Below, piece by piece: positions 24,284 to 44,337 of a DNA stretch of 64,000 nucleotides. This DNA comes from Paracoccaceae bacterium (lineage in GTDB: Bacteria > Pseudomonadota > Alphaproteobacteria > Rhodobacterales > Rhodobacteraceae): positions 62,001 through 126,000 of the forward strand of contig JAQWSE010000004.1 of the NCBI GenBank assembly GCA_029243395.1. Direction: 5' to 3'. The number at the start of each line of letters is the position of its first letter. The stretch's first letter is position 1. Made by a program: the position numbers and the translations under genes. The notes below the pieces were generated by a model. The model was not told where the DNA came from. It ran no database searches and saw nothing but the letters and a program-made list of their open reading frames with translations.

Positions 24284-25424
24284 CGTGAATAATATTTCAA
24301 TTTATTTACACTGGCCGTTTTGTGAATCAAAATGCCCTTACTGTGATTTCAACAGCCATGTGAGAGAAAAAGTTGTACAAGAGGATTGGTTGCAGGGTTA
24401 CCTAAAGAATATCCGGTTATGGGTTTCTATTTTTCAAAACCCGAAAATTAAAACTATTTATTTTGGTGGTGGAACACCCAGTTTGATGGAGCCAAATATA
24501 GTTTCAGATCTCTTAGAAGGTCTTTATAAGTATTATTCAATTTCAAATAATATAGAAATATCTCTTGAAGCTAATCCTAGTTCTGTTGAAATAAAAAAAT
24601 TTAGGGATTACGCTTCTGCCGGAATAAATAGAATTTCTATAGGTGTCCAATCATTTGTGGATAAGGATCTCAGATTACTAGGTAGGCGCCATAATTCTAA
24701 AGAGGCTCTGTCTGCTGTTGAAATTGGTAAAAACATTTTTGAAAATTTAAGCTTTGATTTAATTTATGGTAGACAATTTCAAAGCCTACTGGATTGGGAA
24801 AAAGAATTACAATTTGCTATTTCTTTACGGAGTCAGCACTTGTCCCTGTACCAACTAACAGTCGAAAACAATACCGCCTTTGGTAAGTTGTTTGATAAAG
24901 GAAAATTAAAAGGTTTACCTTGTGACGAATTATCCAGAAAGCTTTTTATGACCACTAATGATATATGCTATTCCCACGGATATAAACCTTATGAAATCTC
25001 AAATTTTGCATTAGATAAACAAGAGTGTAAGCATAATGTGAATTACTGGAAGTGCGGTAATTTTCTTGGAATAGGACCTGGGGCGCATGGTCGATACCAA
25101 TTTAATCAAAAGCGTTTCTCATATGAGAACATAAAGAATCCTGAGACCTGGCTTAATAAATCATTTAATGAGGATCTTGCTATAAATATTAAAAAAAGAA
25201 TGTCTGATTTGGATCATTTTGAAGAATTCGTTATTATGGGGTTAAGACTTAGTGAGGGTCTGAGTTTATCAAAAATGCATAAAAATTTCGGCAAGAGATT
25301 TGACGAAAAGATACTTCAAGAATTAATCCGTTTGGGTTTTATAGAAATTGCTAGTAATCAACTTAAAGTCTTACAAAAAGGAAAAGTCTTATTAAATTAT
25401 ATAACTAAACAGTTGTTAACATAA
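24276..25424 (+). CDS. hemW: Radical SAM heme chaperone HemW (HemN-like)
   Basis: The protein (up to 382 residues) begins ISIYLHWPFCESKCPYCDFNSH, whose CX3CX2C binds the radical-SAM cluster. It continues with TIYFGGGTPSLM, ISIGVQSFVDKDLRLLGRRHNS and CKHNVNYWKCGNFLGIGPGAHG. HemW proteins bind and deliver heme; they were long annotated as oxygen-independent coproporphyrinogen oxidases, but lack its full activity. The short N-terminus before the cysteines and the rph-rdgB context support HemW rather than HemN. The start may be TTG 24276 or GTG 24285. It converges with parB three bases away. Confidence 0.93.
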   Translation: MIDVNNISIYLHWPFCESKCPYCDFNSHVREKVVQEDWLQGYLKNIRLWVSIFQNPKIKTIYFGGGTPSLMEPNIVSDLLEGLYKYYSISNNIEISLEANPSSVEIKKFRDYASAGINRISIGVQSFVDKDLRLLGRRHNSKEALSAVEIGKNIFENLSFDLIYGRQFQSLLDWEKELQFAISLRSQHLSLYQLTVENNTAFGKLFDKGKLKGLPCDELSRKLFMTTNDICYSHGYKPYEISNFALDKQECKHNVNYWKCGNFLGIGPGAHGRYQFNQKRFSYENIKNPETWLNKSFNEDLAINIKKRMSDLDHFEEFVIMGLRLSEGLSLSKMHKNFGKRFDEKILQELIRLGFIEIASNQLKVLQKGKVLLNYITKQLLT

Positions 25425-25427
25425 GCT

Positions 25428-26324
25428 TCATTTTTTTGTTCTTAAAATGTCACATATGGCATCTAGTTCTTCTAAATTCTTATATGAAATGTAAACCTTT
25501 CCTGAATTTTTCTTTTTATCATGAGATATTCTCGTTGGAAAATTTATTTGAGCAGTAAGAGATCTTTCCAAATCTACAGTATCAGGATCTTTTTCCGAAG
25601 AAGATCCGACTTTTATTTCTTTTTCATCATAATCTATTTTTTGTCTCTTAGCAAAAAGCTCTGTTTGCCTAACAGACAAACCCTTTTTAATTACTAACCT
25701 AGCCAAAAAAAGAGGATCTTGGAAATTTAATATCGCCCTCGCATGACCTGCACTAAGTTCTCCATTTTTCACATACCCCATTACTTCCTGGGGCAATGAT
25801 AGAAGTCTTATTGAATTAGAAATATAAGGCCTTGATTTTCCTACTATTTCAGCTATTTTATCGTGTTTATATTTGAATTCCTCGGCTAATTTTAAGTAAC
25901 CTTCTGCTTCCTCTACTGAGCTTAGTTCAGTTCGTTGTACATTTTCTATGATAGCAATTTCTAAGATTTCTTTAGAAGTTAATTCCTTAACTATTACCGG
26001 AAGTTCATGTAAACGGGCCATCTGAGCTGCTCGCCAGCGTCTTTCACCAGCCACTATCATATATTCTGATTTACCTTCCTTAACCACGATCAAAGGCTGT
26101 AAAATACCTTTGTCCTTAATAGTTTCTGATAACTTTCTTAACTCATCAGGATTGAAGTTCTTTCTTGGTTGATCCGGGTTAGGCCTAAGTTTTTCTATCG
26201 GTATCACTAACGCTCCCGATTTCCTCAGGTTAGTTTCTATCTGATTTTCATTGAGATTTATATCCTCAACATTATCAGATAAAAATGAGGATAATCCTCG
26301 TCCTAATGCTTTCTTTTTGTTCAA
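25428..26324 (-). CDS. parB: Chromosome partitioning protein ParB
   Basis: ParB binds parS and, as a CTP-dependent clamp, spreads along DNA to form the partition complex near the origin. The 298-residue protein begins KKALGRGLSSFL. It has the LRPNPDQPRKNF segment, the CTP-binding motifs VAGERRWRAAQMA and IENVQRTELSSVEEAEGY, a helix-turn-helix (HDKIAEIVGKSRPYISNSIRLLSLP) and a C-terminal dimer domain ending LEELDAICDILRTK. It lies 17 bases after parA. Two parS palindromes are in the upstream genes of the same cluster. Confidence 0.97.
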   Translation of the reverse strand: MNKKKALGRGLSSFLSDNVEDINLNENQIETNLRKSGALVIPIEKLRPNPDQPRKNFNPDELRKLSETIKDKGILQPLIVVKEGKSEYMIVAGERRWRAAQMARLHELPVIVKELTSKEILEIAIIENVQRTELSSVEEAEGYLKLAEEFKYKHDKIAEIVGKSRPYISNSIRLLSLPQEVMGYVKNGELSAGHARAILNFQDPLFLARLVIKKGLSVRQTELFAKRQKIDYDEKEIKVGSSSEKDPDTVDLERSLTAQINFPTRISHDKKKNSGKVYISYKNLEELDAICDILRTKK

Positions 26325-26341
26325 TGCTCATTCCTCTTTTT

Positions 26342-27169
26342 TTATCCTGTGGATGACAATGTATTTCTTTCCCGCTTTAGAAATTCCGCGGCTAGTTTTT
26401 GATAGGCTATAGAACCAAGACACTTTCTGTCATATATAACACCAGGCAAAGAATAAGAGGGAGCCTCACTTAATTTAACATTTCTAGGAATCATTGTATT
26501 AAAAACAAGATCACTTAATGTGGACCTGACATCCTCTTCTATTTGGATTGAAAGATTGTTTCGTTTGTCAAACATAGTAAGTAAAACACCCAATATCTTT
26601 AATTCCTTGTTAAAAGTATTCCGTATTTCTTTAATCGTTACCATAAGTTGGGACAAACCCTCTAGTGCAAAGAATTCTGTCTGCAAAGGAATAATAACCA
26701 TCTTTGCAGTCACCAATGAATTAACAGTAAGTAAATTTAAAGCAGGCGGACAATCCATGAAAACATAATCAAATTCCCTTGTTTCTGATAATCCTTTTAT
26801 GAGACATCGCCTCAATCTCAATGCTTTTTGTTCAGTGTTACCTAAATCCATATCCACTGATGCAAGATCTGAGTTTGCTGGAACGATGAATAAATTAGGT
26901 ACTTTTGTTCCTTTTAAGATATTTGATAGCTTTTCTTCAGTTATAATTAAGTCATAGGAGCTCAGTTTACGGTCCTCTGGCAAAACACCCAAACCTGTCG
27001 AAGCATTGCCCTGAGAATCTAAATCAATAATTAAAACTTTTTTTCCTGTAGCTGCCAGGCATGTCGCCAGATTAAGGACAGTAGTTGTTTTGCCTACACC
27101 ACCTTTTTGATTCACCACAGTGATAAGGTTCGTCTGAACTCCACCTTCTTCTTCTACCTTATTGAGCAA
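26342..27169 (-). CDS. parA: Chromosome partitioning ATPase ParA
   Basis: ParA is the deviant Walker ATPase that forms a DNA-bound gradient pulling the ParB-parS complex. Visible motifs are NQKGGVGKTTTVLNLA (residues about 20-35, with the signature lysine), IDLDSQGNASTGLG and YVFMDCPPALNLLTVNSL. The start seems to be TTG 27169, with AAGGA about ten bases upstream, overlapping the rsmG 3' end by eleven bases. The order rsmG-parA-parB is conserved near bacterial origins. Confidence 0.97.
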   Translation of the reverse strand: MLNKVEEEGGVQTNLITVVNQKGGVGKTTTVLNLATCLAATGKKVLIIDLDSQGNASTGLGVLPEDRKLSSYDLIITEEKLSNILKGTKVPNLFIVPANSDLASVDMDLGNTEQKALRLRRCLIKGLSETREFDYVFMDCPPALNLLTVNSLVTAKMVIIPLQTEFFALEGLSQLMVTIKEIRNTFNKELKILGVLLTMFDKRNNLSIQIEEDVRSTLSDLVFNTMIPRNVKLSEAPSYSLPGVIYDRKCLGSIAYQKLAAEFLKRERNTLSSTG

Positions 27170-27824
27170 CTTTTATGTTCCTTATTTCCAATATTGAAGA
27201 ATCTAATGACAATAAATTACTAATCTGCCTCATCTCAAATTCCCAATAAACTAATGATTCTTTAATTTCTAATGAAAATGTTTTTCCTTTTGGAAAGAGA
27301 CTAATAGTTTTATCGTTTTTATGCATGTACGCTATCTCAATCAAGCGCCTTAAAGCCCCAAATGCCCTAGCAGAAATAACATCAGCTTTCTGAGGCTTTA
27401 CATCTTCTACCTTACTGCAAAAAAGACAAACGTTCAAAGAAAGTTTTAGAGAAACCTGTTCCAGAAAGAATGCTTTTTTTTTATTTTTTTCCACTAATAT
27501 TACTTTTAGTTGTGGATTCAATTCCTGAGCTATAATGCTAATTACCAAACCAGGAAATCCTCCTCCAGAACCAAAATCTAACCATGTTTTTGCATTCTGA
27601 GGTGCATAGAGCCATAACTGAGAACTGTCGAGAAAATGTCTTTGCCAAGAAGATTCTATGGATTTTCTTGATACTAAATTAACTTTTGTGTTCCATTCAG
27701 AAAGGATGCAGTAATAGTAATGAAGTTTTTCACATGTTTCACGTGAAACACCTAATTTATCTAAAAGGAAGGTATCTTTACAGTGATGACTTTGCACCAT
27801 AGGAGCGTTGTTCATGATTACCAT
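27159..27824 (-). CDS. rsmG: 16S rRNA (guanine527-N7)-methyltransferase
   Basis: RsmG (GidB) methylates G527 in the 530 loop of 16S rRNA. The protein contains [45 protein letters not shown] and the SAM-binding motif [19 protein letters not shown] start at ATG 27824, which has AGAGAG five bases upstream and overlaps mnmG by 47 bases; GTG 27842 and ATG 27815 are alternatives. The codons for GVSRET make up a perfect parS site (27735-27750), so protein and partition site share the same bases. Confidence 0.94.
27735..27750. promoter_or_regulatory. parS centromere site 1 (perfect palindrome)
   Basis: TGTTTCACGTGAAACA is an exact 16-bp palindrome identical to the widely conserved chromosomal parS sequence. 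It lies within the 5' part of rsmG, encoding GVSRET. It should be a loading site for the ParB encoded 1.4 kb away. Confidence 0.95.
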
Positions 27825-29697
27825 TATCTCTCTTTGCACCACTATACTTTTTTATCCATAAATGTACTAGGGTCAAAGCAGCCGGGGTCATACCTTCTAT
27901 CCTAGAAGCCTGAAGTAAATCAATAGGGCGAATTAGTTCCAACTTTGACTGAATTTCGTTAGAAAGACCATTGATTAACCTGTAATCAAAGTTTTCTGGT
28001 ATTTTTGCTCTAGAATTCTTTTTGGTTTCTTCTATTTCTACTTTCTGTCTTCTGATATAAATATCATATCTGACATCATGTGCTACTTGTAATAAAATAC
28101 TTTTTTCAATGCACTTAAGTTCTGGCCAAATAGACTGGATTTTTTTGAGTGGCACCTTTGAATCACTTATGAAATTCAAAGCACATCTAATCTTACCATC
28201 CTGTTTCACCGTTAGACCTAATTTAATTGCTTTCGAAGGGGTTATTTTACATTCTTTAAGCACGGACTTAGCTTTTTTGATCTTACTAATTTTATTAAGA
28301 AAAGCGTTATTTCTATTTGAGTTTATGGTGCCCAAATCTGAACCTAACTGGGTAAATCTTTGATCGGCATTGTCGGCACGTAATGTCAGTCTGTACTCTG
28401 CCCTGGATGTAAACATTCTATAAGGCTCCTTAACGCCCCTGGTGACCAAATCATCAATTAGAACACCTATATAACCTTGATCTCTTCGAATTATGACAGG
28501 TCCATTAGAACGAACAAACATCACCGAATTTATACCAGCGATAAGACCTTGGGAAGCTGCTTCCTCATAGCCAGTAGTGCCATTTATCTGTCCTGCTAAG
28601 AAAATACCTTGTAGGGCTTTCATTTCTAAGGATGGCTTCAATGATCTTGGATCAATATAATCATATTCTATAGCATAACCGGATTTTAATATGTTAACAC
28701 TTTCTAATGCTTTTATTGACCTAACATATTTTTCTTGGATATCCTCAGGCAAAGAAGTTGAGATGCCATTTGGATAAATAACGTCACTGTTCAATCCCTC
28801 AGGCTCCAAAAATATTTGGTGGCTTTCTTTTTCAGAAAACTTAATTACTTTATCCTCAATAGATGGACAATATCTAGGGCCTGTCGACAGGATTTTACCA
28901 CTATATATAGCTGATTTTTTGATGTTTTTTTCAATAATTTCATGTGTTTTCTTGTTTGTATAAGTTATATGGCAAGCTATCTGTTTTAACCTGGTTTTTT
29001 TTGTTAAAAATGAGAAATAGTGCGGTTTGCTATCAGCATATTGTTTTTCAAGAATAGACCAGTTGATTGTCTTACTATCAAGTCTTGGTGGCGTCCCTGT
29101 CTTAAGTCGACCCATCGGTAAATTCATTTCCCTAAGTCTATCAGCCAATCTTATTGAAGCCAATTCTCCGCTTCTACCACCTGAGAATGACTTATCTCCT
29201 ATATGTATTTTGCCATTCAAGAATGTTCCTGTAGTCAAGATGACAGACTTACTATAAATTATTTCAGAATTTCCTAAAATGACACCACTCACCGAATAAT
29301 CCTTCACCACTAAATCTGTGACTTCTGCCTCTATTATTGTTAACAAAGCAATATTATTGAGTCTTTTTTGGATTATCTTCTTGTATTCCTGTCTGTCTAT
29401 CTGAGTTCTAGGTCCTTGAACCGCTGGACCCTTGCTTTTGTTCAACAGTCTAAACTGTATTCCTGAAGCATCAGCCACTACACCCATTATACCACCCAAG
29501 GCATCAACTTCCCTTACCAGATGTCCCTTTCCAAGACCTCCTATGGCAGGATTACAAGACATTTCACCTATTTTTGTAATACTGTTAGTAATCAAAAGAG
29601 TTCGCATACCCATCTTACTACTAATATAAGCTGCCTCAGTACCTGCATGGCCGCCACCAACAACTAAAATTTCATAAAAAGGTTTCACGTGAAACAC
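27778..29697 (-). CDS. mnmG: tRNA U34 carboxymethylaminomethyl modification protein MnmG
   Basis: MnmG (GidA) is the FAD-dependent partner of MnmE that installs cmnm5 at U34 of certain tRNAs. The 639-residue protein has the dinucleotide fold [22 protein letters not shown], the motif [24 protein letters not shown], the [11 protein letters not shown] loop, [20 protein letters not shown] and the C-terminal helical domain ending [21 protein letters not shown]. The N-terminal residues MFHVKP are dictated by a parS site that covers the start codon. It overlaps rsmG downstream and follows mnmE by 16 bases. Confidence 0.98.
29681..29696. promoter_or_regulatory. parS centromere site 2 (one mismatch), over the mnmG start
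   Basis: On the minus strand this reads TGTTTCACGTGAAACC, one base from the perfect parS palindrome. It begins at the second base of the mnmG start codon and encodes FHVKP. It lies 1.9 kb from site 1 and about 4 kb from the candidate origin. The mismatch is at an outer position, so ParB binding is likely kept. Confidence 0.88.
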
Positions 29698-29713: not shown

Positions 29714-31030
29714 TTATTTACCAATACAAAAACTATTGAAGATCTCTCCTAAAATTTCTTCTGTATTAACTCCCCCCAAAAGTCCATCAAATTTTCTTAG
29801 TATGGTTCGCAATTCTTCTGCTATTATTTCATCTTCATAGTTTTTTTCTTCTATGTAAACCTGGATAGTTCTTAAATGATCAAGACAGAATGTTATCTTT
29901 TCTAAATGCCTTGTTCTTGTAATATTACTAGCTTTTCTAACTTTATCCGCAAATATTTTTTTTAGAGTTTCCAGTAAGTCCTCAAAACCCTTACCTGTTT
30001 TACCAGAAATGCTAGGCTCTGAACCAGGCAAATCACCTTTCGGTCTTAAGACAATATCTGATTTCACGTATTTAACTCCAAAACTCCTTATTTCCTCTTT
30101 ATCATTTGTTAAAAAAACACGAACATCAGAATTGTTTACCCTATCGATGGAATTACTAACACCTATTTTCTCAATCTCATCATCAGTATGGCGAACTCCT
30201 GCTGTGTCTAAGAATGTTACAGGCAAACCATCTAAATTATACCTAAGTTCGATTATATCCCTAGTTGTACCAGTAATCTCAGAAGTGATAGCCAGCTTTC
30301 TCTTAGCCAGTCCATTCAAAAGAGTTGACTTACCTACGTTTGGTTTACCAACAAGAGCTACTTCAAAACCACCTCTGATAGATTCAGCCGATTTAAAGCC
30401 CTCCTTTTCCTCCATTAACTCAGTCTCCAAAATCTTCAAATCATGGACCACACCATTAACCAAACTATCACTGTTTACTTCATCAGAAAAATCTATAGAC
30501 GCTTCAACGGAAGAAAGTATTTTAGTGGTTCTTTCTTTCCAACCATTAACTTTTTTTGATAAAGAACCTGAATATATGTTTAACGCTTGTTCTTGCTGAG
30601 CTTCAGTTTCTGCCACAAGTAGATCAGAAAGTCCTTCAACCTCAAAAATACTTAACTTGTTGTTTTCTAAGGCTTGTTTAGTAAATTCACCTGGCCTTGC
30701 TAATCTAACATAGCCTAAACTACTCAAGGATTCTAATACTGTTCTCACAACTATATGACTTCCATGTAACTGTAGTTCTGACATATCTTCACCAGTGAAA
30801 CTCCTTCCTTTTTCAAAAAAAATTACTAGCCCTTCATCCAATAACCTACCTTCAATAGAAAATATTTTCCTCAAATGAACTTTCCTGATCTGAGAAAATA
30901 TAGGTTTAAAAGGTTTTTTTAAACCCAGCAACCTACCTACTGCCCTAAAACTATCAGGACCAGATATTCTAATAATGGAGACCGCGGAGATCCCTGGCGG
31001 AGTTGACAACGCAAAAATGGTAGCGGACAT
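29714..31030 (-). CDS. mnmE: tRNA modification GTPase MnmE
   Basis: MnmE (TrmE) is the GTPase and folate-binding partner of MnmG. The 438-residue protein has the N-terminal folate-binding domain starting TIFALSTPPGISAVSIIRISGP and RLARPGEFTKQALENNKLSIFEVEGLSDLL. The inserted G domain follows, with P-loop VGKPNVGKSTLLNGL, TTRDI and DTAGVRHTDDEIEKIG. The terminal FCIGK motif holds the essential cysteine. It lies six bases after rho on the same strand and is followed by mnmG. Confidence 0.97.
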   Translation of the reverse strand: MSATIFALSTPPGISAVSIIRISGPDSFRAVGRLLGLKKPFKPIFSQIRKVHLRKIFSIEGRLLDEGLVIFFEKGRSFTGEDMSELQLHGSHIVVRTVLESLSSLGYVRLARPGEFTKQALENNKLSIFEVEGLSDLLVAETEAQQEQALNIYSGSLSKKVNGWKERTTKILSSVEASIDFSDEVNSDSLVNGVVHDLKILETELMEEKEGFKSAESIRGGFEVALVGKPNVGKSTLLNGLAKRKLAITSEITGTTRDIIELRYNLDGLPVTFLDTAGVRHTDDEIEKIGVSNSIDRVNNSDVRVFLTNDKEEIRSFGVKYVKSDIVLRPKGDLPGSEPSISGKTGKGFEDLLETLKKIFADKVRKASNITRTRHLEKITFCLDHLRTIQVYIEEKNYEDEIIAEELRTILRKFDGLLGGVNTEEILGEIFNSFCIGK

Positions 31031-31036
31031 TTGTTA

Positions 31037-32335
31037 TCAGTTATTCATCGAATCAAAAAATTCTGAGTTGGTTTTGGTTTGTTTTAATTTACTTAACAAA
31101 AACTCTATTGCGTCAGTTGTACCCATAGGATTTAAAATCCTGCGAAGAACAAAAACTTTTGTCAATTCATTCTTTTCAACTAGTAGCTCTTCTTTCCTCG
31201 TACCTGATTTAAGCAAGTCTATTGCAGGAAAAACTCTTTTGTCTGCCACTTTTCTATCCAAAACCAGCTCAGAATTTCCAGTTCCTTTAAACTCTTCAAA
31301 AATTACTTCATCCATCCGGCTACCTGTATCAATTAATGCAGTAGCTATTATAGTAAGTGAACCCCCCTCTTCTATATTTCTAGCAGCCCCAAAAAACCTC
31401 TTAGGCTTTTGCAAAGCATTTGCATCGACTCCTCCTGTAAGAACTTTCCCTGAGGAGGGTACTACAGTGTTATAAGCTCTTCCCAAACGGGTTATTGAAT
31501 CTAATAAAATCACCACGTCTCTTTTATGTTCGACTAGCCTTTTAGCTTTCTCTATCACCATTTCAGCTACCGCCACATGCCGAGTTGCTGGTTCATCAAA
31601 AGTAGAAGCTATTACTTCTCCTTTAACGGATCTTTGCATATCTGTTACTTCTTCAGGTCTTTCATCCACCAGAAGGACTATAAGATAGCTATTCGGTTGA
31701 TTCTTTTCTATAGAATGAGCAATATTTTGTAATATTACGGTTTTACCTGTTCTAGGTGGAGCCACAATCAGAGATCTTTGACCTTTTCCTATTGGAGCTA
31801 CTAAGTCTATAACTCTTGCAGACTGGTCTTTTATAGTTGGATCCTCTATCTCCAATTTAAATCGTTCATCAGGGTAAAGGGGTGTCAGATTGTCAAAGTG
31901 TATTTTGTGTTTAGCTTTCTCAGGCTCTGCAAAATTTATAGCCCTCACTTTAACTAATCCGAAATACCTTTCACTATCTTTTGGGGCACAAATTACGCCC
32001 TCCAAAGTGTCACCGGTTCGTAAAGAGTACTTTTTAATTTGAGAAGGACTAACATAAATATCATCAGGGCCCGGTAAATAATTTGCATCACTAGAACGTA
32101 AGAAACCAAAGCCGTCTTGAACAACATCCAGTACTCCATCTCCGTAAATTTCTACACCCTCTTCAGCCATCTCTTTGAGAATAGCAAACATCATATCACC
32201 TTTTCTCATGGTAGAAGCGTTATCAATTTCTATTTTCTCGGCTAGCTTCAACAAATTAGCAGGTGATTGTGCTTTTAGTTCTGCCAAAGACAATTCTTCA
32301 ATCGTCTTCAGATCAACCTGGTTTAAATCCACCAT
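31037..32335 (-). CDS. rho: Transcription termination factor Rho
   Basis: Rho is the hexameric RNA helicase that ends transcription at untranslated C-rich RNA. The 432-residue protein has an N-terminal helical domain ([19 protein letters not shown]), the cold-shock-like RNA-binding domain ([27 protein letters not shown]), Walker [14 protein letters not shown], the arginine-finger and R-loop region, and [31 protein letters not shown]. It is complete. Intrinsic terminators are scarce in this window, which fits a general reliance on Rho. In relatives a heme gene often lies between rho and hemE; none is here. Confidence 0.98.
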
Positions 32336-32432: not shown

Positions 32433-33467
32433 TTATCTATGTAAAGTGTCTATTAAGATTTCCACATTTTTTATTTCAGCATTAGGTGTTATCCCGTGCC
32501 CAAGATTGAAAATGTGCCCACCATTTGAAAACATTTTTTTTATGTTTTGTATTTCTTCTATCATCATTTTACCACCAGAAACGAGAAAGGAAGGATCGAG
32601 ATTACCTTGTACAACAACGTTCTTTTGAACATTTTCTTTTGCCCAGCGTAAAGGTAAATTAGAATCTAACGCCACACAATCAAATGCTTTTATTTGAGAA
32701 AATTTTTTGTAGTGGGGACCTACGCCTCTTGGAAACACTATTATTTGGACCGATGGAAATATGTCCTTTAACCTTTCGGCTATTTCCTTCATTGGTTTTA
32801 AAGAATACTTTTCGACTAAAGAACCTGGTAAAGAACCCGCCCAACTATCAAAAAGTTTAACTACATCAGCTCCAGCTTCTATCTGTTTAGATAAATAATC
32901 AATAGTCGCATCTGTAATTTTTGATATTAAAATGTCAAAACTTTCTGGGTGTTGAGCTAGGAACTTCTTTGTTTTTTGATGATCCTTTGATCCCCTTCCT
33001 TCTATCATATAGGTAGAAACAGTCCAAGGTGATCCAGCAAACCCTATTAACGTGATGTTTTTATCTAGTTTTGATTTTATTAAACTAACAGCATCATAAA
33101 CAGGGTTTAAAGTATTATGGATAGTGTTTGTTTTTAAAAGGTTTAGAACATCGTTATGATTATTTATTGTTTCTAAAATAGGTCCTTCACCTTCTTTAAA
33201 TTCCAAATTTAAACCAAGCGCATTTGGTATAAGTAAGATATCCGCAAATAATATAGCACCATCCAAATCAAAACGTTTTAATGGTTGTAGAGTAACTTCA
33301 GCAGCTAATTTAGGATTGTAACAAAGGTCTAAAAAACCACCTGCTATTAAACGCGTTTTTTTATATTCAGGTAAATAACGTCCCGCTTGTCTCATAAGCC
33401 AAACGGGTGGTACGTCATATCTTTCACCTTTTAAAACCGAAAGTAATTTTTTGGAAGTACTTATCAT
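32433..33467 (-). CDS. hemE: Uroporphyrinogen decarboxylase
   Basis: HemE decarboxylates uroporphyrinogen III to coproporphyrinogen III. The 344-residue protein shows RYDVPPVWLMRQAGRYLPEYKKTR, ILFADILLIPNALG, GFAGSPWTVSTYMIEGRGSKDH, IIVFPRGVGPHY and VVQGNLDPSFL, with conserved active-site arginines and aspartate. It is the last minus-strand gene before the AT-rich hemE-aroE gap, the position bordering oriC in Caulobacter. hemC and hemD lie 22 kb to the right in the same window. Confidence 0.97.
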   Translation of the reverse strand: MISTSKKLLSVLKGERYDVPPVWLMRQAGRYLPEYKKTRLIAGGFLDLCYNPKLAAEVTLQPLKRFDLDGAILFADILLIPNALGLNLEFKEGEGPILETINNHNDVLNLLKTNTIHNTLNPVYDAVSLIKSKLDKNITLIGFAGSPWTVSTYMIEGRGSKDHQKTKKFLAQHPESFDILISKITDATIDYLSKQIEAGADVVKLFDSWAGSLPGSLVEKYSLKPMKEIAERLKDIFPSVQIIVFPRGVGPHYKKFSQIKAFDCVALDSNLPLRWAKENVQKNVVVQGNLDPSFLVSGGKMMIEEIQNIKKMFSNGGHIFNLGHGITPNAEIKNVEILIDTLHR

Positions 33468-33745
33468 AATTAAAAAAATATATTATTATATTAGTTGTAG
33501 TATGTAGTATCACTGTATTTTGTGGAAAAATAGTATTAAATAATATTTATATAAGAAAAACATAATATGTGTTTGATAAATAAATAAATTTTTAATTATA
33601 CACATTAATGTATAAAGATATTCACAAACAAGAGATGTTAAGTTTATGTGAATAAATTTTTATAACATGTATAAAATAAACACTATAAATAACTTACCTA
33701 AGTTTTGTGGAAAACTGAACGGAAAAAAGCAATGATTGTGGATAA
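33468..33745. other. oriC: Candidate chromosomal replication origin (oriC)
   Basis: This very AT-rich divergent gap between hemE and aroE holds three perfect DnaA boxes (TTATNCACA): 33596-33604 (plus), 33647-33655 (minus, TGTGAATAA) and 33737-33745 (minus, TGTGGATAA, inside the first aroE codons). Three boxes have one mismatch: 33521-33529 and 33706-33714 (TGTGGAAAA) and 33618-33626 (ATATTCACA). The gap lies where Caulobacter has its origin, next to hemE and the aroE-coaE-dnaQ side. Gene direction switches here from minus to plus, and two parS sites lie 4-6 kb away. TAG triplets at 33492-33507 and long A/T runs could serve as the unwinding region. Confidence 0.8.
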
Positions 33746-34583
33746 AAATGAGATAAGTCTGTCAGGAGTTATAGGTGATCCTATAGCACATAGTAAGTCT
33801 CCTCTAATTCAGAATTTTTGGATAAAAAAAAATAACTTAGAAGGTTATTATATACCTATAAAAATCCCAAAAGGAGAGATCAAAAAGAAAATTAGTTGTG
33901 TAAAGGAACTTGGTTTTAAGGGGTTAAATGTGACTGTTCCACATAAAGTTGATGCTTTTTACCTAGCTGACAAGCTCACTATAGAAGCCCAAAAAGTAGG
34001 TGCAGTAAACACCCTTTATTTTGAAGATGGTCTAATAATAGGGGATAATACTGACACATTTGGATTTAAGAACTGCATATTACGTAATTTTCCATTCTAT
34101 AATTTCAAAAAAGAAAAGGTTCTTGTATACGGAGCTGGTGGTGCCGCTAGAGCAGTATTAGCAGTTTTTTTAAATGAAAGAACGTCAGAGATCAGATTGA
34201 TTAACAGAACTAAAGAAAGAGCTATAGAGTTAAAAGAAGTGTTTTCTGATTCTATAAAAGTATTTGATTGGAAAAACAACAACGAAGCATTAGATGGTGT
34301 TACAACTGTTGTGAACACCACTAGCTTAGGTAATTTAGGGCATGATTCGTTTCCTCATACGTTAAAGGGTGTTAAAAAAAACGGTGTTGGCGTAGACCTC
34401 GTTTATAACCCTTTGGAAACATCATTTATGAAGAAAGCAAAGCAGGAGGAAATAAATTGTATTAATGGTTTGGATATGCTCGTCTACCAGGCAATGCCGG
34501 GTTTTAAGAGATGGTTTAAGAAGAAACCAGTTTATTCAAAAGAATTAAGAAAGTTATTAGAAATTTCTTTGTTGAGAAGGTAA
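33732..34583 (+). CDS. aroE: Shikimate dehydrogenase
   Basis: AroE reduces 3-dehydroshikimate to shikimate with NADPH in aromatic amino acid synthesis. From ATG 33732 the product begins MIVDKNEISLSGVIGDPIAHSKSPLIQNFW, the shikimate-binding motif. It contains GLNVTVPHKVDAF with the catalytic lysine, GDNTDTFGF with the catalytic aspartate, the NADP motif VYGAGGAARAVLAVFL and NRTKERA, and C-terminal NGLDMLVYQAMPGFKRWF. ATG 33732 fits the conserved start; the in-frame region before it lies within the origin gap. A DnaA box overlaps codons 2-5. The maf and PPDK-regulator (RP001) genes that lie here in Caulobacter are absent. Confidence 0.96.
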   Translation: MIVDKNEISLSGVIGDPIAHSKSPLIQNFWIKKNNLEGYYIPIKIPKGEIKKKISCVKELGFKGLNVTVPHKVDAFYLADKLTIEAQKVGAVNTLYFEDGLIIGDNTDTFGFKNCILRNFPFYNFKKEKVLVYGAGGAARAVLAVFLNERTSEIRLINRTKERAIELKEVFSDSIKVFDWKNNNEALDGVTTVVNTTSLGNLGHDSFPHTLKGVKKNGVGVDLVYNPLETSFMKKAKQEEINCINGLDMLVYQAMPGFKRWFKKKPVYSKELRKLLEISLLRR

Positions 34584-34584: not shown

Positions 34585-35202
34585 TTGTCTTTTAAACTAG
34601 GTATAACAGGTTTTATTGGGATGGGAAAAACAACAGTCTCATCTTATTTTGTGGAACAAAATATACCTTTATGGGATGCTGACAAAAATGTGCACAGAAT
34701 ATACGAAAAGAATGGGTTGGGTTACAATGCTTTAATAGCAAAGTTTCCTAATTTAATTAATGATGTGGCTATTGACAGGAATCAATTATCCCAGATGATT
34801 CAAAAAAAAGAAACAACACTGGATGTCGTAGAATCAATAATTCATCCGGTATTATCATTGGAAAGGAATAAATTCATTGCTAAGCATCACCATCATTCTC
34901 TTTTAGTATTTGACTTACCTCTTCTTTTCGAAACAAAAGCTGATTCATGGTTGGACGCTGTATTATTAGTAACCTGTTCCAGGAAAACCCAAAAGAAAAG
35001 GCTTTTAAAAAGGAAAAATTTGAATAGTGAAAAAATAAAAATGTTAATTACAAGACAGAATAGATATGTGGGGCGACGAGACAAATGTGATTTCATTATA
35101 AATTCTGATAAAGTTTTGGATGATATGAAGAAGGATGTGTTATCAGTTATAAAAACGATTAAGGATAATTGTAATGACAAGAGAAGTGGTTCTGGACACT
35201 GA
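34585..35202 (+). CDS. coaE: Dephospho-CoA kinase
   Basis: CoaE phosphorylates dephospho-CoA in the last step of coenzyme A synthesis. The 205-residue protein has the P-loop GITGFIGMGKTTVSSYF, the WDADKNVHRIYEKNG segment with the conserved aspartate, and VFDLPLLFETKADSWLDAVLLVTC. It starts with TTG one base after the aroE stop and overlaps dnaQ by 29 bases, so aroE-coaE-dnaQ are one transcript. Confidence 0.95.
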   Translation: MSFKLGITGFIGMGKTTVSSYFVEQNIPLWDADKNVHRIYEKNGLGYNALIAKFPNLINDVAIDRNQLSQMIQKKETTLDVVESIIHPVLSLERNKFIAKHHHHSLLVFDLPLLFETKADSWLDAVLLVTCSRKTQKKRLLKRKNLNSEKIKMLITRQNRYVGRRDKCDFIINSDKVLDDMKKDVLSVIKTIKDNCNDKRSGSGH

Positions 35203-35896
35203 AACCACAGGTTTGAATCCTGCAAAAGGTGATAGAATTATAGAAATAGGTGCATTGGAATTATTCGATCATGTGCCTACAGGAAAAGTTTTTCATGTCT
35301 ACTTGAATCCTGAAAGAAAAATACCAGAAGATTCTATTAGAATACACAAGATCACAGATAATTTTGTTGTAGACAAACCTCTTTTTGCGGATGTGGTTAA
35401 AGATTTTATTTCCTTTTTGGAAAGCAGTTCATTAGTAATACACAATGCTGAATTTGACATTAAGTTTTTACAACATGAACTCCAGAATATTAATTTCCCA
35501 ATGTTAGATTTACCAGTCATAGACACTCTTGTTTTAGCCAGAGAAAGATATCCCGGATCGTCAGTTTCTTTGGATGCTTTATGTAAGAGGTTCAATGTTG
35601 ACACTACTAATAGAAAAGAAAGAGGGCATGGAGCTTTGACTGACAGCATACTGTTGTCCGAAGTCTATTTAGAGATATTGGGAGGAAAGCAACCAAATCT
35701 AGGTCTTGATAGAAAGAAAAGTTTTGAAATGGAAGACGAGAATGAGTTATATAGTAAGGGTATAAAACTAATAAGACCTAAACCCCTAACTAAAAGAATT
35801 TCTCAATTTGACATAAAAAAACACCAAGAATTTTTGAAGACTATAGGGTGCGATAAAGCTTGGAAAAATTTAAAACTGCATCAAGTTTTGTCTTGA
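35174..35896 (+). CDS. dnaQ: DNA polymerase III epsilon subunit (proofreading exonuclease)
   Basis: DnaQ is the 3'-5' proofreading exonuclease of the replicative polymerase. The 240-residue protein has the DEDDh motifs: EVVLDTETTGLNPAKGDRIIEIGA (D and E), VIHNAEFDIKFL (D), and RGHGALTDSILLSEVY (H and D). The C-terminal extension ending KAWKNLKLHQVL should contact the polymerase alpha subunit. It overlaps coaE upstream by 29 bases and the convergent secB by 16 bases. Confidence 0.96.
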   Translation: MTREVVLDTETTGLNPAKGDRIIEIGALELFDHVPTGKVFHVYLNPERKIPEDSIRIHKITDNFVVDKPLFADVVKDFISFLESSSLVIHNAEFDIKFLQHELQNINFPMLDLPVIDTLVLARERYPGSSVSLDALCKRFNVDTTNRKERGHGALTDSILLSEVYLEILGGKQPNLGLDRKKSFEMEDENELYSKGIKLIRPKPLTKRISQFDIKKHQEFLKTIGCDKAWKNLKLHQVLS

Positions 35897-36489: not shown

Positions 36490-37152
36490 ATGGTTCAAAT
36501 TCTAGTACTAGCAGCAGTAGCAATTTTTCTTTTTTGGCGTTTGAGATCAGTTTTGGGTTCAAGAGAAGGATTCGAAAAAACAAATATAACTCCGGAAAAA
36601 AACAAAGAAAAAAGACAAGCTAAAAATGAGGATTCAAATGTTATAGAGCTTAAGGCTAATGAAATTGATGAAGAAATAGCAGATTATGTTGAGTTAGATA
36701 GTCCGGCATTTAAAGCACTGTCAGAAATGAAAAAATTGGAAAAGGGATGGTTAGTTTCTCATTTCGTTTCTGGTGCCAAAATGGCTTATGAGGATATCTT
36801 AATGGCCTTTGAAAAAGGTGATTTATCCACAATAAGAAAAATGACTTCAAAAGAGGTTTGTCAATCCTTCAAAACAGTAATTGATGAGAGAGCAAATAAA
36901 GGTCTACGAGTAGAAGCAGAGTTTGGAGGCGTTAGAGACATAAGAATAAAAGAAGTCGATTTTGATACAAAAACCATGAACGCAAAAATAACGATGGTTT
37001 TCAAATGTGAGCTGTCTTTTAGTGTGAAAGATAAAGATGGTAATATTGTGGAAGGAGGTCCTGACAAAATAAAAAAACAAAGAGATATTTGGACTTTTTC
37101 TCGTAAAATGAATACTGATGTACCAAATTGGTATCTAGTAAAGACCGAATAA
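36490..37152 (+). CDS. Tim44-like protein TimA
   Basis: From ATG 36490 the 220-residue product has one N-terminal membrane anchor (MVQILVLAAVAIFLFWRLRSVLGSREGFE), a charged linker, and a C-terminal Tim44 domain (GAKMAYEDILMAFEKGDLSTIRKMTSKEVCQSFKTVIDER, then RDIWTFSRKMNTDVPNWYLVKTE). Alphaproteobacterial TimA is the homologue of the mitochondrial import protein Tim44, and sits facing the cytoplasm on the inner membrane with no settled function. An upstream in-frame start at 36409 would put a long tail before the anchor and is unlikely. The dnaQ-secB-timA-smr order matches relatives, except that fxsA and mltA are missing. Confidence 0.9.
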   Translation: MVQILVLAAVAIFLFWRLRSVLGSREGFEKTNITPEKNKEKRQAKNEDSNVIELKANEIDEEIADYVELDSPAFKALSEMKKLEKGWLVSHFVSGAKMAYEDILMAFEKGDLSTIRKMTSKEVCQSFKTVIDERANKGLRVEAEFGGVRDIRIKEVDFDTKTMNAKITMVFKCELSFSVKDKDGNIVEGGPDKIKKQRDIWTFSRKMNTDVPNWYLVKTE

Positions 37153-37792: not shown

Positions 37793-39100
37793 TTATAGTA
37801 CATATCTGCTCACATCTGCCGAACTGACAAATTTATCTAGGTTAGTTTTCACAAAATTGGTATCAATCTTAACAGTTTTTGTTTTTTGATCAGGTGCAGA
37901 AAAACTTAGGTTTTCAAAAACTTTTTCTAGAATAGTATATAATCGTCTAGCACCAATGTTTTCTACAGTAGCATTTATATCCGCTGCTATTTTTGCCAAA
38001 GACTTAATACCACTATCTTCAAAAGTTAATTCTATACCCTCTGTGAGCATCAATGCAGCATATTGTTTTGTCAGAGAATTTTCGGTTTCTTTAAGAATAT
38101 TGATAAAATCTTTTTCTGTTAGCGCTGATAGCTCAACTCTTACAGGAAGTCTTCCTTGAAGTTCTGGTAAAAGATCACTTGGTTTTACTACATGGAAAGC
38201 CCCTGATGCTATAAACAAAATATGGTCTGTGCGAATTGGACCATATTTTGTTGAAACAGTTGTCCCTTCTATTAGGGGTAATAAATCCCTTTGAACGCCT
38301 TCTCTACTAACGTCCGCAGACTTCATTTCAGCTCGAGCACAGATTTTATCTATCTCGTCCAAAAATACTATACCATTTTCTTCTACTGACTCTATGGCTT
38401 TTTTTGTAATCGTATCTTCATCTAGAAGTTTGTCTGCTTCCTCTTTAGTTAATAGATCATAACTATCAGCTATTCTAATTTTAATTTTTTTGGTCCTTTT
38501 TCCTAAAGCTTTACCAAAAACTTCATTAAGATTCATCATCCCCATGCTGTTGCCAGGTTGACCGGGAATTTCAAAAAGAGATAAAGGGTTTGCCGTTTCA
38601 TTCAAATCAATTTCAATTTCTTTGTCATCTAATAGACCATCCCGGAGTTTTTTCTTGAACATTTCAATTGTTTGTTCTCGGGCGTTTTCCCCAGTTAAAT
38701 AAGCCAAAACTCTTTTTTCAGCTTGAGCATGGGCTTTTGCCTCTACATCCTTGCGCATCTTTTCTCGTATCATTATCATAGCGCTATCGACCAAATCTCG
38801 AACTATTTGTTCTACGTCTCGTCCGACATAACCTACTTCGGTAAATTTGGTAGCCTCTACTTTCACAAAAGGTGCACCGGCCAATTTAGACAAGCGTCTT
38901 GATATTTCAGTTTTTCCGACTCCAGTTGGCCCAATCATCAGAATATTTTTAGGATAAATTTCTTCTTTAAGCGGGGACTCTACTTTTTTTCTTCTCCATC
39001 TGCTCCTAAGGGCAACAGCAACAGCCCTTTTTGCAGGTTCTTGCCCGATTATGAACTTGTCTAGTTCGGAAACTATTTCTCTAGGTGTTAACTCAGTCAT
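37793..39100 (-). CDS. hslU: HslUV protease ATPase subunit
   Basis: HslU unfolds substrates and feeds them to the HslV peptidase. The 435-residue AAA+ protein begins [36 protein letters not shown]. It has Walker [17 protein letters not shown], Walker [14 protein letters not shown], the I domain (about residues 110-240), sensor residues in [10 protein letters not shown], and the C-terminal tail ADVSRYVL that docks into HslV. It overlaps hslV by four bases. Confidence 0.98.
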
Positions 39101-39666
39101 TTAATTTTTGATAAGGTTTCAGAAACAACGTTATGGTTAGTATAAACACATATATCAGCAGCTATTTTCAGTGCTGTCTTACAAATTTCCTTTGAAGAAA
39201 GCTCATTATCGTAAATAGCTTTTGCTGCAGCTAGAGCATAATTGCCTCCCGATCCCACGCAAGCTATACCTCCTTCTGGTTCCAAGACATCTCCTGAACC
39301 AGAAATTATGAATAGATCTTTTCCATCAGAAACAATTAACATAGCCTCCAAATTTCTCAAATATTTGTCAGTTCTCCAATCTTTGGCTAATTCGATTGCT
39401 GATCTAGATAAATTTCCAGGGAAAGTTTCCAATTTTCTTTCAAGTCTTTCCAATAAGGTAAAAGCATCTGCAGTAGATCCAGCAAAACCTACCAATATTT
39501 CCAAGCCCCCAGGCTTTAATCTTTGGACCTTTTTTGCTGTACCTTTCATTACAGTTTGACCTAAGGTGACTTGGCCATCACCGGCAACAGTCACACAACC
39601 ATTTTTCATTACTCCTATAATTGTTGTACCGTGCCAGGTTTGGCCTTTTGAATTATTTTTCATCAT
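39097..39666 (-). CDS. hslV: HslUV protease peptidase subunit
   Basis: HslV is the proteasome-like threonine peptidase of the HslUV complex. The mature protein would begin at the threonine of [23 protein letters not shown], after a short propeptide ([12 protein letters not shown]). [14 protein letters not shown] near the C-terminus is typical. I place the start at ATG 39666, whose A is also the last base of the infB stop codon; ATG 39663 is equally possible. The order infB-hslV-hslU in one direction suggests readthrough from the rimP-nusA operon. Confidence 0.96.
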
Positions 39667-42125
39667 CAATTAAGTGTTCTAGCAATTTTTTGAACAGAAA
39701 ATATTTCGATCACATCTTTTTTTCTTATGTCTTCATAGTCTGAAAATGCCATGCCACATTCTTGTCCAGACTGAACAGATTCTACTTCATCTTTAAACCT
39801 TTTTAATGTTTTAAGAGATCCTTCGTGAATTACTACATTATCTCTTAAAAGCCTAACCTTAGCTGATCTTTGAGCATTACCTTCAGTGATCAGACAACCA
39901 GCGACCTTACCAGCATTGGTCACTTTAAAAACTTCTAATATTTCGGCATAACCTAAAATGGTTTCCTTTATTTCTGGTTTAAGTAGACCAGAGGCCGCTT
40001 TTTTGATATCATCAACTAAATCATATATTATAGAATAATAGCGTAATTCTACCTCTTTTTGATTTGCTCCGTCTCTAGCAGAGGCGTTAGCTCTTACGTT
40101 AAAACCTATTATAGGTGCTTTCGAAGCTTCGGCCAAAATTACATCACTTTCAGTAATAGCGCCAACGCCAGAATGTAAAACGGTTATTCTAACTTCTTCT
40201 GTACTTATTTTATCTAAAGCTTGCACTATTGCTTCAGTAGAGCCTTGAACATCGGCTTTAACGACCAAAGGAAGTTCCGAAACTTCTTCGTCTGCTTTGG
40301 CCTTTGCTATCATTTGATCTAATGTTTTTCCAGTACCTAAAGCATCTTTTTTGTCTTTAATAACCTGATTTCTATAATTTGCTATTTCTCTAGCTTCTGT
40401 TTCGTTTGACACCACATTTAAAATATCACCTGCCTCTGGGGTTCCATTCAAACCCAAAACCTCAACTGGAACAGACGGACCAACCTGAGACACTTTTACA
40501 TTTTGACTATCAATTAAGGCCCTCACTTTACCCCATTGATCTCCAACGACAATGATGTCCCCCTTATTAAGTGTACCTTTTTGCACCAATACTGTAGCAA
40601 CTGGTCCACGCCCAACATCCAGCTTTGCTTCAATTACTGTACCTTCTGCTTCTCTGTTTGGATTAGCTTTCAGTTCTAGTATTTCAGTTTGTAGGGTGAT
40701 ATTTTCCAGAAGAGTTTGCACTCCTTTTCCAGTAGAAGCAGAAACCTCAACATCTAAAACCTCTCCTGACATTGATTCTACAATTACTTCATGCTTCAGC
40801 AGATCAGTCCTTACTCTGTTAGGGTCAGAATTTTCTTTGTCACACTTGTTTATTGCTACTATAATTGGAACTTTTGCTGCTCTTGCGTGGTTTATAGCTT
40901 CTATAGTTTGAGGCATAACGCCATCATCAGCAGCAACAACTAAAATAATTATGTCTGTAACTTGTGCTCCCCGTGATCTCATAGAAGTAAATGCTGAATG
41001 CCCAGGGGTATCCAAGAACGTAAATAAAGAGCCTTTTTCTGTCTTTACTTGATAAGCACCGATATGCTGTGTAATACCACCAGCTTCATTGCCAGTTGTA
41101 TTTGTTTTTCTAATAGCATCCAATAAGGAAGTTTTCCCGTGGTCAACATGTCCCATGACAGTTAGTATTGGGGCTCTTGGTTTCATATTTTCAGCAGCAT
41201 CTTTTTCATCGTGTTTTAAAATAGCATCTTCTACATCTGAGGCTGAAACTCTTACAGGAATGTGATCAAACTCTTCAACTATCAAAATGGCAGTATCAGC
41301 ATCTATTGTTTGGTTTTGGGTTGCCATTATGCCATTTGTCATCAATGTTTTAACTACAGAGGCAGATCTCTCAGCCATTCTATTCGCCAGTTCTTGAACT
41401 GTAATAGAATCAGGAACTGGTACTTCCCTTTTTACCTTTTCTCTGTCTGCACTATCTGATGTTTGTCTGCGCTTTACCTTTTCTTGTCTTCTTCTCAAAG
41501 AAGCAATGGATCTTTGTCTTCCTCCTTGATCAGAGAGAGCTTGATTAATTGTTAATTTTCCAGACCTTCTTCTCTCTAAATATCCTTTGCTAGGCCGAAC
41601 CTCTTTTAATTCGTCATCTTTTTTGAACTTTTTTCCGGAAGAAGTATCGCTAGACTTACTATCAAATTTATTGTCGATTTTAGATCGAGTTTTTGGAGTT
41701 GTATCGTCAATAGGTTGAGCAACATCTAAAACTTTTTGAACTACCAAATTTTCTTTTTCAGATTTTTTACTTACTTCCACTTTCTCCAACAAAGCTTTTT
41801 CTGCAATCTGCCTATCAACCTCTTTCTTTTTGTTTTCTTCTTCCCGAGCGGCCTCTATGGCTTTTTTTCTCCTATCAATTTGTTCTTCTGAGTAATTCTT
41901 ATTGAATTGAGCTTTTGGGTCGGAATCAGTATTTTCTTTGGTAAGTGTGTTAAGATTTTGATTAGAGGACAAAATATTCTTACTCGTTTTAAGAATTTTT
42001 TTACGTTTGGTTTCTATAAGGACCGATTTGGATCTTCCACGAGCAAGATTCATTCGTACAGAATTTCCAGAGCCCCGGACACTCAATGTTTTTGAGCTAG
42101 TGCCTTTTTTCTCATTTTCATCCAT
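39666..42125 (-). CDS. infB: Translation initiation factor IF-2
   Basis: IF-2 is the GTPase that places initiator tRNA on the ribosome. The 819-residue protein has a charged N-terminal region with an alphaproteobacterial [32 protein letters not shown] motif, the IF2 N domain ([23 protein letters not shown]), and the G domain with [29 protein letters not shown] and NKCDKE. Domains II-IV end with GYEAD-like [18 protein letters not shown]. It lies 29 bases after ylxR in the rimP-nusA-ylxR-infB operon. Confidence 0.98.
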
Positions 42126-42154
42126 TATTAAATCGACCTTTTATTCTATATTCT

Positions 42155-42718
42155 TTAACATCTTCTCAGATTTCCTAGGCGAGCAGTATCAAAAATTAAC
42201 GGATTAGTAAAACTACTCTTTAAGAAGCCAACATTGGTAATAGCATCTCTTCTAAAAGGAATCCCTAGTTCCGTTCTATTCAAGCAATTAATCCTAGAAG
42301 CTTGGGATTTTGGTAATGCTAGGTTCTTTTTTCGATTTTCAGATCCATCTCTTGCTTGCAGGAGTAATTCTATCTTATTTGTTAACAAATATCTTTGGAT
42401 TTTTTCATAACCAATTATTACTTTACCAGCCTTTCTAGATAAAGCTATCAAACTAACGATTCTCTTTAATAATATGTTATCTATCCTTGAAACAAGATTT
42501 TCTTGTTGGAAATCTCTTTCATATTTTTTGCTTGCAAATTCTTTCATCTTTATCAGGATATTTTTAGAAGCAAGAACATAAAACTCTTTTCCATCAAATT
42601 CGTTAAATAAATCAAGGGTAAATACATTGGATGGAGACAAAACAAACCTAATCATAAGCTCACTTGGATGCATTTTTTTTGTAATATAACACATCTTTTT
42701 TTCGCATAAGTCTTTCAT
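42155..42718 (-). CDS. YlxR/RnpM-like RNA-binding protein fused to an L7Ae-like domain
   Basis: This 187-residue protein has an N-terminal YlxR (DUF448) domain with CYITKKMHPSELMIRFVLSP, and a C-terminal L7Ae-like domain with LIALSRKAGKVIIGYEKIQRYLLTNKIELLLQARDGSENR and NRTELGIPFRRDAITNVGFLKS. The fusion is normal in alphaproteobacteria. YlxR in Bacillus (RnpM) modulates RNase P; the function here is uncertain. The usual GRGAYV motif is replaced by GKEFYVL. Its position between nusA and infB is conserved in bacteria. Confidence 0.9.
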   Translation of the reverse strand: MKDLCEKKMCYITKKMHPSELMIRFVLSPSNVFTLDLFNEFDGKEFYVLASKNILIKMKEFASKKYERDFQQENLVSRIDNILLKRIVSLIALSRKAGKVIIGYEKIQRYLLTNKIELLLQARDGSENRKKNLALPKSQASRINCLNRTELGIPFRRDAITNVGFLKSSFTNPLIFDTARLGNLRRC

Positions 42719-42744
42719 GATTATTTTAATTACCGTCCTATTAA

Positions 42745-44337
42745 TTAAGAAACCTGATCTTCATTTGTTATTTCTTTGTCATAATCCTCAGCTGTAATCC
42801 AGCCCATTTTGAGTCTAGCATTCATAACCAAAATCCTTGCCTCTTTTAAACTAATATCAAACTTTTCAAGAATACCGTCATCTTTAACTCTCTTTCCTTC
42901 AACTGTAGTATAACCCCCTGCAATTTCCCAATCAGCACATTTGGCAAATTCCTCAAGATTCTTAATGTTTTCTTCAGCAAGCACCTGTATCATTTCAGGA
43001 TTTAAACCTTCGAAATTTATCAAACTTTCCTCAACACCCAACTCTTTAGCTTTTTTCAATGCTTTATTATTATTTTCTTCTATACATTCCTGTGCTCTAG
43101 CTTGAAGCTCTTCAGAAGTGGATTCATCGAAACCTTCGATATTTTCAATCTCACTTTTTTCAACATATGCTACTTCTTCAAGCGTGGAAAAGCCCTCTGA
43201 AACGAGTAGTTGGGCTACCATTTCATCCACATTAAGAGTATCCATAAAAAGTTTTGATCTCTCAGCAAATTCCGTCTGCCTTCGTTCCGATTCCTCAGCT
43301 TCGGTCATAATATCAATATCAAATTGTGTTAGCTGACTGGCTAATCTGACATTTTGGCCTCTTCTCCCAATCGCTAGAGAAAGTTGATCATCTGGAACAA
43401 CAACTTCAATTCTTTGAGAGTCCTCATCAAGGACTACTTTTGAGACCTCAGCAGGTTGTAAAGCATTTACCAAGAATGTAGGGGCATCTTCATTCCATGG
43501 AATTATATCTATCTTTTCACCTTGTAATTCATTCACCACAGCTTGGACCCGAGAACCACGCATGCCGACGCAGGCACCGACAGGATCTATTGAGCTGTCA
43601 AGTGATATCACACCTATTTTTGCTCTACTTCCAGGGTCTCTGGCAACAGTTTTAATCTCAATGATTCCATCATATATTTCGGGTACTTCCATTTTAAAAA
43701 GCTCAGACAAAAACTCCGGAGCTGTTCGCGAAAGAAAAATTTGAGGTCCTCTAGTTTCTGTTTTTACGTCTTTGATATAAGATCTTACCCGATCCCCAGT
43801 TCGAAAAGTTTCTCGATTGATGAGCTGATCTCGTCTTAAAATTGCTTCACCCCTACCCACATCTACAATGACATTGCCATATTCAATTCTCTTTACTTGA
43901 CCATTAATAATTTGACCAACTCGATCTTTGAATTCTTCATATTGTCTTGCCCTTTCAGCTTCACGAACTTTTTGTACTATGGTTTGTTTTGCAGATTGAG
44001 CGGCAATTCTTCCAAAATCCATAGGAGGCAATGGATCCTTGACAATATCACCAATTTTAGCTTCAGGAAGTAGGTCAATAACTTCATCAATTGTTATTTC
44101 TGTAAAGTGGTTTTCAACTTCTTCCACAACCAATCTACATCGATTCATTGTTAACTCACCAGATTTCGTATCAATTTTTGCTCTAATATCATATTCTGCC
44201 CCATACTTGGATCTTGCTGCTTTTGCCAAACTTTCTTCCATAGCCTCTATTACGAGTTCCGGTTCAATTAATTTTTCTCTTGCGACAGCATCAGCAATCT
44301 GAAGTAATTCAATTTTACTAGGGTTGTGTTCGGCCAT
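42745..44337 (-). CDS. nusA: Transcription termination/antitermination protein NusA
   Basis: NusA binds RNA polymerase and controls pausing, termination and antitermination. The 530-residue protein has the N-terminal polymerase-binding domain (VAREKLIEPELVIEAMEESLAKAARSKYG), an S1 domain (GQIINGQVKRIEYGNVIVDVGRGEAILRRDQLI), two KH domains (GACVGMRGSRVQAVVNELQGEKIDIIPW and LAIGRRGQNVRLASQLTQFDIDIMTE), and two C-terminal helix-hairpin acidic repeats. All domains are present. It follows rimP by 19 bases. Confidence 0.98.
   Translation of the reverse strand: MAEHNPSKIELLQIADAVAREKLIEPELVIEAMEESLAKAARSKYGAEYDIRAKIDTKSGELTMNRCRLVVEEVENHFTEITIDEVIDLLPEAKIGDIVKDPLPPMDFGRIAAQSAKQTIVQKVREAERARQYEEFKDRVGQIINGQVKRIEYGNVIVDVGRGEAILRRDQLINRETFRTGDRVRSYIKDVKTETRGPQIFLSRTAPEFLSELFKMEVPEIYDGIIEIKTVARDPGSRAKIGVISLDSSIDPVGACVGMRGSRVQAVVNELQGEKIDIIPWNEDAPTFLVNALQPAEVSKVVLDEDSQRIEVVVPDDQLSLAIGRRGQNVRLASQLTQFDIDIMTEAEESERRQTEFAERSKLFMDTLNVDEMVAQLLVSEGFSTLEEVAYVEKSEIENIEGFDESTSEELQARAQECIEENNNKALKKAKELGVEESLINFEGLNPEMIQVLAEENIKNLEEFAKCADWEIAGGYTTVEGKRVKDDGILEKFDISLKEARILVMNARLKMGWITAEDYDKEITNEDQVS

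Follow-up and report, generated by a model that had tools for sequence, protein, structure and literature searches.

A candidate DnaA-dependent chromosomal origin between hemE and aroE in an AT-rich bacterium grouped with the Rhodobacteraceae

Where does replication of the main chromosome begin in an AT-rich bacterium that is known from a fragmented assembly? A first-pass annotation of the window analyzed here (64,000 nucleotides; positions 62001–126000 of the 127-kb contig C3 in assembly G000, which comprises 2.487 Mb in 13 contigs and is 97.9% complete) pointed to the gap between hemE and aroE. We find that this gap and the first aroE codons (33468–33745; positions are those of the window unless C3 is named) very probably serve the main chromosome as its DnaA-dependent oriC, in an organism grouped with the Rhodobacteraceae, and put the probability at about 0.95. 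The reading is supported by a switch in corrected strand skew, by conservation of the flanking genes, the gap and two DnaA boxes, and by a box cluster that is unique at the stricter patterns. Clustered boxes and a strand-composition switch coincide with a region that is AT-rich by composition and whose unwinding is predicted.

As to the organism, HemE finds its highest-scoring titled relatives under names such as Anianabacter, Brevirhabdus, Rhodovulum and Roseicyclus, which we take to be Rhodobacterales. HemE residues 179–344 are 91% identical to a fragmentary record titled 'Rhodobacteraceae bacterium isolate NAT102'.

An AT-rich gap with clustered DnaA boxes

The gap proper (33468–33731, 264 bp) has a GC content of 18.2%, where the window as a whole has 35.0%. 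Of all 264-bp stretches in the 127-kb contig, the one poorest in GC (16.3%) begins at 33429, in the hemE start, and has 225 bases in common with the gap, which bears out the earlier description of the gap as extremely AT-rich. Transcription diverges from it, as had also been claimed. On the left lies hemE, encoding uroporphyrinogen decarboxylase (32433–33467, minus strand; Pfam PF01208, 380 bits), and beyond it mnmE and rho (29714–32335, minus strand; profile matches, in an order repeated in loci of the genus), together with gidA. On the right lies aroE, encoding shikimate dehydrogenase (33732–34583, plus strand; PF08501 and PF01488), whose ATG at 33732 is aligned across eight sequences of the genus; it is accompanied by coaE and the exonuclease gene dnaQ (34585–35896, plus strand; PF01121 and PF00929) and by secB. 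At the right end of the window, a frame at 62765–63916 resembles, by eye, a tyrosine recombinase.

A pattern scan with TTWTNCACA finds five boxes in 225 bp, from 33521 to 33745. Box 1 (TTTTCCACA, 33521–33529, minus strand) is proximal to hemE and lies beside a trio-like tract described below. Box 2 (TTATACACA, 33596–33604) is on the plus strand; box 3 (TTATTCACA, 33647–33655), box 4 (TTTTCCACA, 33706–33714) and box 5 (TTATCCACA, 33737–33745) are all on the minus strand, the last within aroE codons 2–5. Only box 5 is a perfect TTATCCACA, the other four having one mismatch each, and a further one-mismatch site (33817–33825) lies within aroE. The original count of three perfect and three one-mismatch boxes therefore needs revision, since three perfect boxes are obtained only under TTWTCCACA. 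Likewise, isolated perfect boxes in the window number three rather than one: besides that already reported at 52669, they occur at 24656–24664 and 36823–36831.

Could such boxes be chance matches in AT-rich DNA? Genome-wide, TTWTNCACA is found 271 times and the reversed pattern 274 times, which would fit chance matches. Because the pattern is not enriched, it is the clustering that is special, and here the chance reading fails: dinucleotide shuffles of the box stretch contain 0.15 boxes on average and 2 at most, none of 5000 reaching five, and two of the boxes are retained in all eight genus sequences compared. By a Poisson estimate at the genome rate (271 sites), five boxes in 270 bp are expected about 3e-6 times per assembly. 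We give chance next to no weight. No second place with three sites in 500 bp is found among all 80 TTWTCCACA sites, or among all 76 TTATNCACA sites, of the 2.487-Mb assembly. This agrees with the earlier statement that there is no other cluster; uniqueness refers to these stricter patterns, the first 100 of the 271 assembly sites having been listed for TTWTNCACA. The five boxes are presumably bound by DnaA.

Strand composition, dnaA and the partition genes

Cumulative GC skew had been proposed as a check, and we applied it to contig C3, extending the window by the contig's own flanking stretches. The raw minimum lies at C3:107150 (window 45150), 11.5 kb to the right of the gap, at the end of a block of minus-strand genes (37793–44824); taken literally, the refuting condition originally set for the skew minimum would weigh against the origin reading. 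Since genes have a strand bias of their own, and the raw minimum is displaced from the gap, raw skew was set aside as an origin locator and skew was measured for each gene at fourfold-degenerate sites on the coding strand. Corrected in this way, the skew does switch between hemE and aroE. Left of the gap it is −0.314 for plus-strand genes and +0.056 for minus-strand genes; right of the gap the values are +0.080 and −0.225, respectively (medians left and right, −0.30 and 0.07 for plus genes, 0.06 and −0.20 for minus genes). A change-point fit to 116 frames places the switch in the interval between the midpoints of hemE (C3:94950) and aroE (C3:96144), with a gain of 39.9 log units over no switch; the largest gain in 2000 permutations is 17.9. 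The adjoining intervals on both sides are within 3 log units of the best, and the bootstrap 95% interval is 89.7–96.5 kb (300 resamples), with the origin at 95.6 kb. When all third positions are used, the best position is C3:94318, one gene to the left, the origin being 0.9 log units lower and no switch 61.9 lower.

Among relatives, the skew signal is clear in one further genome of the genus (G007) and weak, local or contrary in two others (G001 and G002). For G007, fourfold sites give a best position of 56352, with the origin at about 51030 only 0.8 log units lower and no switch 21.3 lower; third positions give 49759, with the origin 0.4 and no switch 31.4 lower. Fourfold sites of G001 and G002 yield no usable signal. 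Third positions of G002 weakly favour a switch at 72638, near the origin at 71728 (no switch, 3.2 lower). For G001, a 120-kb part gives 57468 versus the origin at 60000 (no switch, 17.1 lower), and the whole 296 kb of contig G001:C2 gives 76320, which is 118 kb from the origin at 194300 (3.7 lower).

The first-pass annotation correctly stated that no dnaA gene adjoins the gap: dnaA is located at C3:50918–52300, 43 kb to the left. In many bacteria the origin lies beside dnaA, and here the gene stands with dnaN-, recF- and gyrB-like frames (C3:46113–52300; those three identified by eye), which would suit an origin at that place. However, the full list of TTWTNCACA sites on C3 contains single boxes and no cluster near dnaA, a mere 21 bases separate the gene from the next upstream frame, and the bootstrap interval for the skew switch does not reach the locus. 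On these grounds we rejected an origin beside dnaA, which seems exceedingly improbable.

The hemE–aroE gap also has partition functions in its vicinity. Pfam matches confirm parB (PF02195 and PF17762) and parA (PF13614) at 25428–27169 on the minus strand, as had been proposed. Of the two nearby parS sites that had been claimed, the one at 27735–27750 (TGTTTCACGTGAAACA, plus strand) matches the parS consensus exactly and that at 29681–29696 (plus strand) has one mismatch; we call both parS-like.

Conservation in the genus and a putative unwinding region

To compare relatives, we sampled 12 genomes of the genus and 37 of the family, the present one included in each. The genus assemblies are incomplete (about 13 to 110 contigs; completeness 60–98%), and both sides of the gap are visible in 8 of the 12. 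Left out were G003, whose contig begins inside hemE; G004 and G008, in which the locus stops just past rho; and G010, in which we found no HemE and only a distant relative of Rho. In all eight testable genomes, own included, hemE and aroE stand head to head around an AT-rich gap. Boxes 1 and 4 are each represented by TTWTCCACA at the aligned place in every one of these gaps; box 1 reads TTTTCCACA in seven sequences and TTATCCACA in L090. (In L090, from G006:C17, hemE is split over two frames, either a break or an assembly error.) The comparison with relatives that had been suggested thus shows the flanks, the AT-rich gap and two boxes to be kept. The remaining boxes vary. Box 2 is not conserved, being missing in L063, the nearest relative with a readable gap; box 3 is common, at its aligned place, to L063 and L064 only; and box 5 is present in two of the eight sequences, L062 (this genome) and L063.

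These data bear on the relation of the boxes to the neighboring genes. Box 5 does lie inside the first codons of aroE in this genome, as originally noted, but the proposal that it ties initiation control to the aroE start was rejected, as a box kept in two of eight sequences leaves such a link unsupported. A broader proposal is that the boxes form a promoter region from which DnaA controls hemE and aroE, with replication beginning elsewhere. The divergence of the two genes from the gap and the overlap of one box with aroE codons would fit such a region. Nonetheless, the strand-skew switch is located here, the box in aroE is not conserved, and no other cluster is seen at the stricter patterns. 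We therefore consider a promoter region very unlikely, and retain the origin reading.

Within the gap, conservation is highest around box 1. Mean identity in the block 33490–33529 is 0.73, versus 0.46 for the rest of the gap minus box 4 (five lineages, three near-duplicates excluded), and one in 2000 column permutations yields an equally conserved 40-column stretch; because alignment favours matching columns, these values are only indicative. Read on the box strand, the block consists of box 1 and, 7 bases on, GTG ATA CTA followed by more CTA triplets. On the basis of its conservation and NTN triplets, we describe the part at 33490–33513 (minus strand) as a DnaA-trio-like tract. The BUS rule calls for a DnaA box, a spacer of at most 16 and three or more NTN triplets (PMC8287927, in excerpt). 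At box 1, at least three NTN triplets with a spacer of 7 occur in seven of the eight genus sequences, the exception being L067. Other leftward boxes of these AT-rich gaps satisfy the rule as well, and we rejected it as proof of an unwinding element, since it is not selective in AT-rich DNA. A count of CTA within 35 bases, restricted to leftward boxes and picked after looking at the data, gives 2–3 at box 1 in all eight sequences and 0–1 at the remaining leftward boxes, whether in the gap or in the first aroE codons; weaker TTATCCAAA sites deeper in aroE reach 1–2. Of the leftward boxes, box 1 is the best candidate for the trio-associated one, given its conservation and CTA content. Compared with the basal unwinding system (PMC8287927, in excerpt), the arrangement is alike in its box 1, 7-base spacer, NTN triplets (7/8) and richness in CTA, and unlike in that the putative triplet run is interrupted. 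By eye and uncounted, a trio-like, G-poor tract seems to trail leftward boxes in a number of further alphaproteobacterial loci.

Box orientation and base composition together suggest how the site might work. As four of the five boxes point leftward, DnaA assembly would run from the side of box 4 to box 1, from where it would continue onto one of the strands in the trio-like tract. The AT-rich DNA beside hemE (33468–33513), the putative unwinding region, would then open, and two helicases would load and move off in opposite directions. Once duplicated, the region would be segregated by ParAB through the two parS-like sites, which lie about 4 and 6 kb to its left.

Relation to known origins and control by DnaA

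In Caulobacter crescentus and Rickettsia prowazekii, the origin is bordered by hemE on one side and COG1806 on the other, while in Wolbachia COG1253 is found at the origin, indicating that a COG1806 boundary is not required (PMC1914354, in excerpt). The present site resembles the Caulobacter Cori and the Rickettsia origin of that source in being hemE-adjacent and AT-rich and in having a cluster of DnaA boxes. It differs in its 264-bp gap, in lacking TTAA-N7-TTAA and an adjacent maf, and in the failure to detect COG1806. The first-pass statement that the site matches the position of the Caulobacter origin thus holds for one border, hemE being the boundary gene in all eight testable genus genomes, and not for the other: the COG1806 family, PF03618, is found in none of the 12 genus genomes, versus 3 of 25 other family members and 11 of 24 genomes from other families (14/49 outside the genus). 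The gene maf is present in 6 of the 12, and in all five with a known origin contig it is on another contig (C5:247388 in G000). The parS-like sites are some 4 and 6 kb away, versus about 8 kb between parS and Cori in Caulobacter (PMC6399470, in excerpt), and the boxes are of the E. coli type rather than the TGATCCACA type described for Caulobacter (PMC4285127, in excerpt).

Within the family, hemE is mostly placed differently. A hemE locus was obtained from 21 of the 25 further family members (L069–L089), and in 18 of these loci hemE stands head to head beside hemC, away from rho, whereas here it flanks the origin. (A hemC-like frame is seen by eye at 55865–56806 of the window.) In G015, a family member outside the genus, hemE still adjoins rho, and the order rho-hemE/aroE is repeated in several loci of other families. 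From these placements we infer that hemE is still at its older position in the genus and that COG1806 has been lost there. By eye, rho loci elsewhere in the family show box-like sites and AT-rich stretches upstream of rho, and are like the present locus in having these between rho and the maf/aroE side. Earlier work had already assigned origins in Rhodobacteraceae from skew, DnaA boxes and parAB (PMC6699656, in excerpt), which makes the find a predictable one. Apparently, this is an origin of a known kind, situated where comparative work predicts, in a compact and CtrA-free form.

How would such an origin be regulated? CtrA, the blocker of the Caulobacter origin, scores above the curated cut-off of model NF045991 (350 bits) in 0 of the 12 genus genomes, versus 21 of 25 others; among same-family genomes sampled outside the genus the count is 9 of 11. 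All 12 have weaker response-regulator matches to the model, the best at 160 bits. ChpT (PF10090) is found in none of the 12, versus 24 of 25 others, and GcrA (PF07750, E up to 0.001) in 11 of the 12 and 20 of 25 others. A single absence proves little, but with twelve joint absences and an own genome that is 97.9% complete, genus-wide loss of CtrA and ChpT is likely. In the gap itself there is no CtrA consensus TTAA-N7-TTAA, the relaxed form occurs 6 times versus 6.04 expected, and the IHF pattern matches once versus 0.35 expected; CtrA and GANTC sites are no more frequent there than by chance, and the single IHF match is not clearly so. Taken together, the negative results for CtrA above its cut-off, for ChpT and for a CtrA consensus in the gap suggest that CtrA is probably not involved here. 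Some Rickettsiales origins likewise have no reported CtrA sites, so these are not required (PMC1914354, in excerpt). In the literature covered (titles and abstract starts, with a look into PMC12661815), we saw no account of streamlined Rhodobacteraceae having lost CtrA, which is weak evidence of novelty.

It is tempting to combine these observations, although we give the combination somewhat less than an even chance. The site may be a stripped-down origin of the Rhodobacterales type, in which CtrA and ChpT have been lost genus-wide and GcrA kept. Initiation would be timed by DnaA alone, acting on a minimal array made up of the two invariant boxes, both leftward, and a single conserved trio-like tract; the aroE side would have been shortened by the loss of COG1806, with no maf adjacent.

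The assignment places the origin, and with it the replication arms, in a genus that this analysis covers only through assemblies that are incomplete and fragmented. With the origin placed, growth-rate estimates from read-depth slopes would become possible. The locus is also a naturally occurring example of a Caulobacter-type origin locus whose lineage has no detectable CtrA or ChpT, and could help in asking what minimal control by DnaA alone looks like at such an origin.
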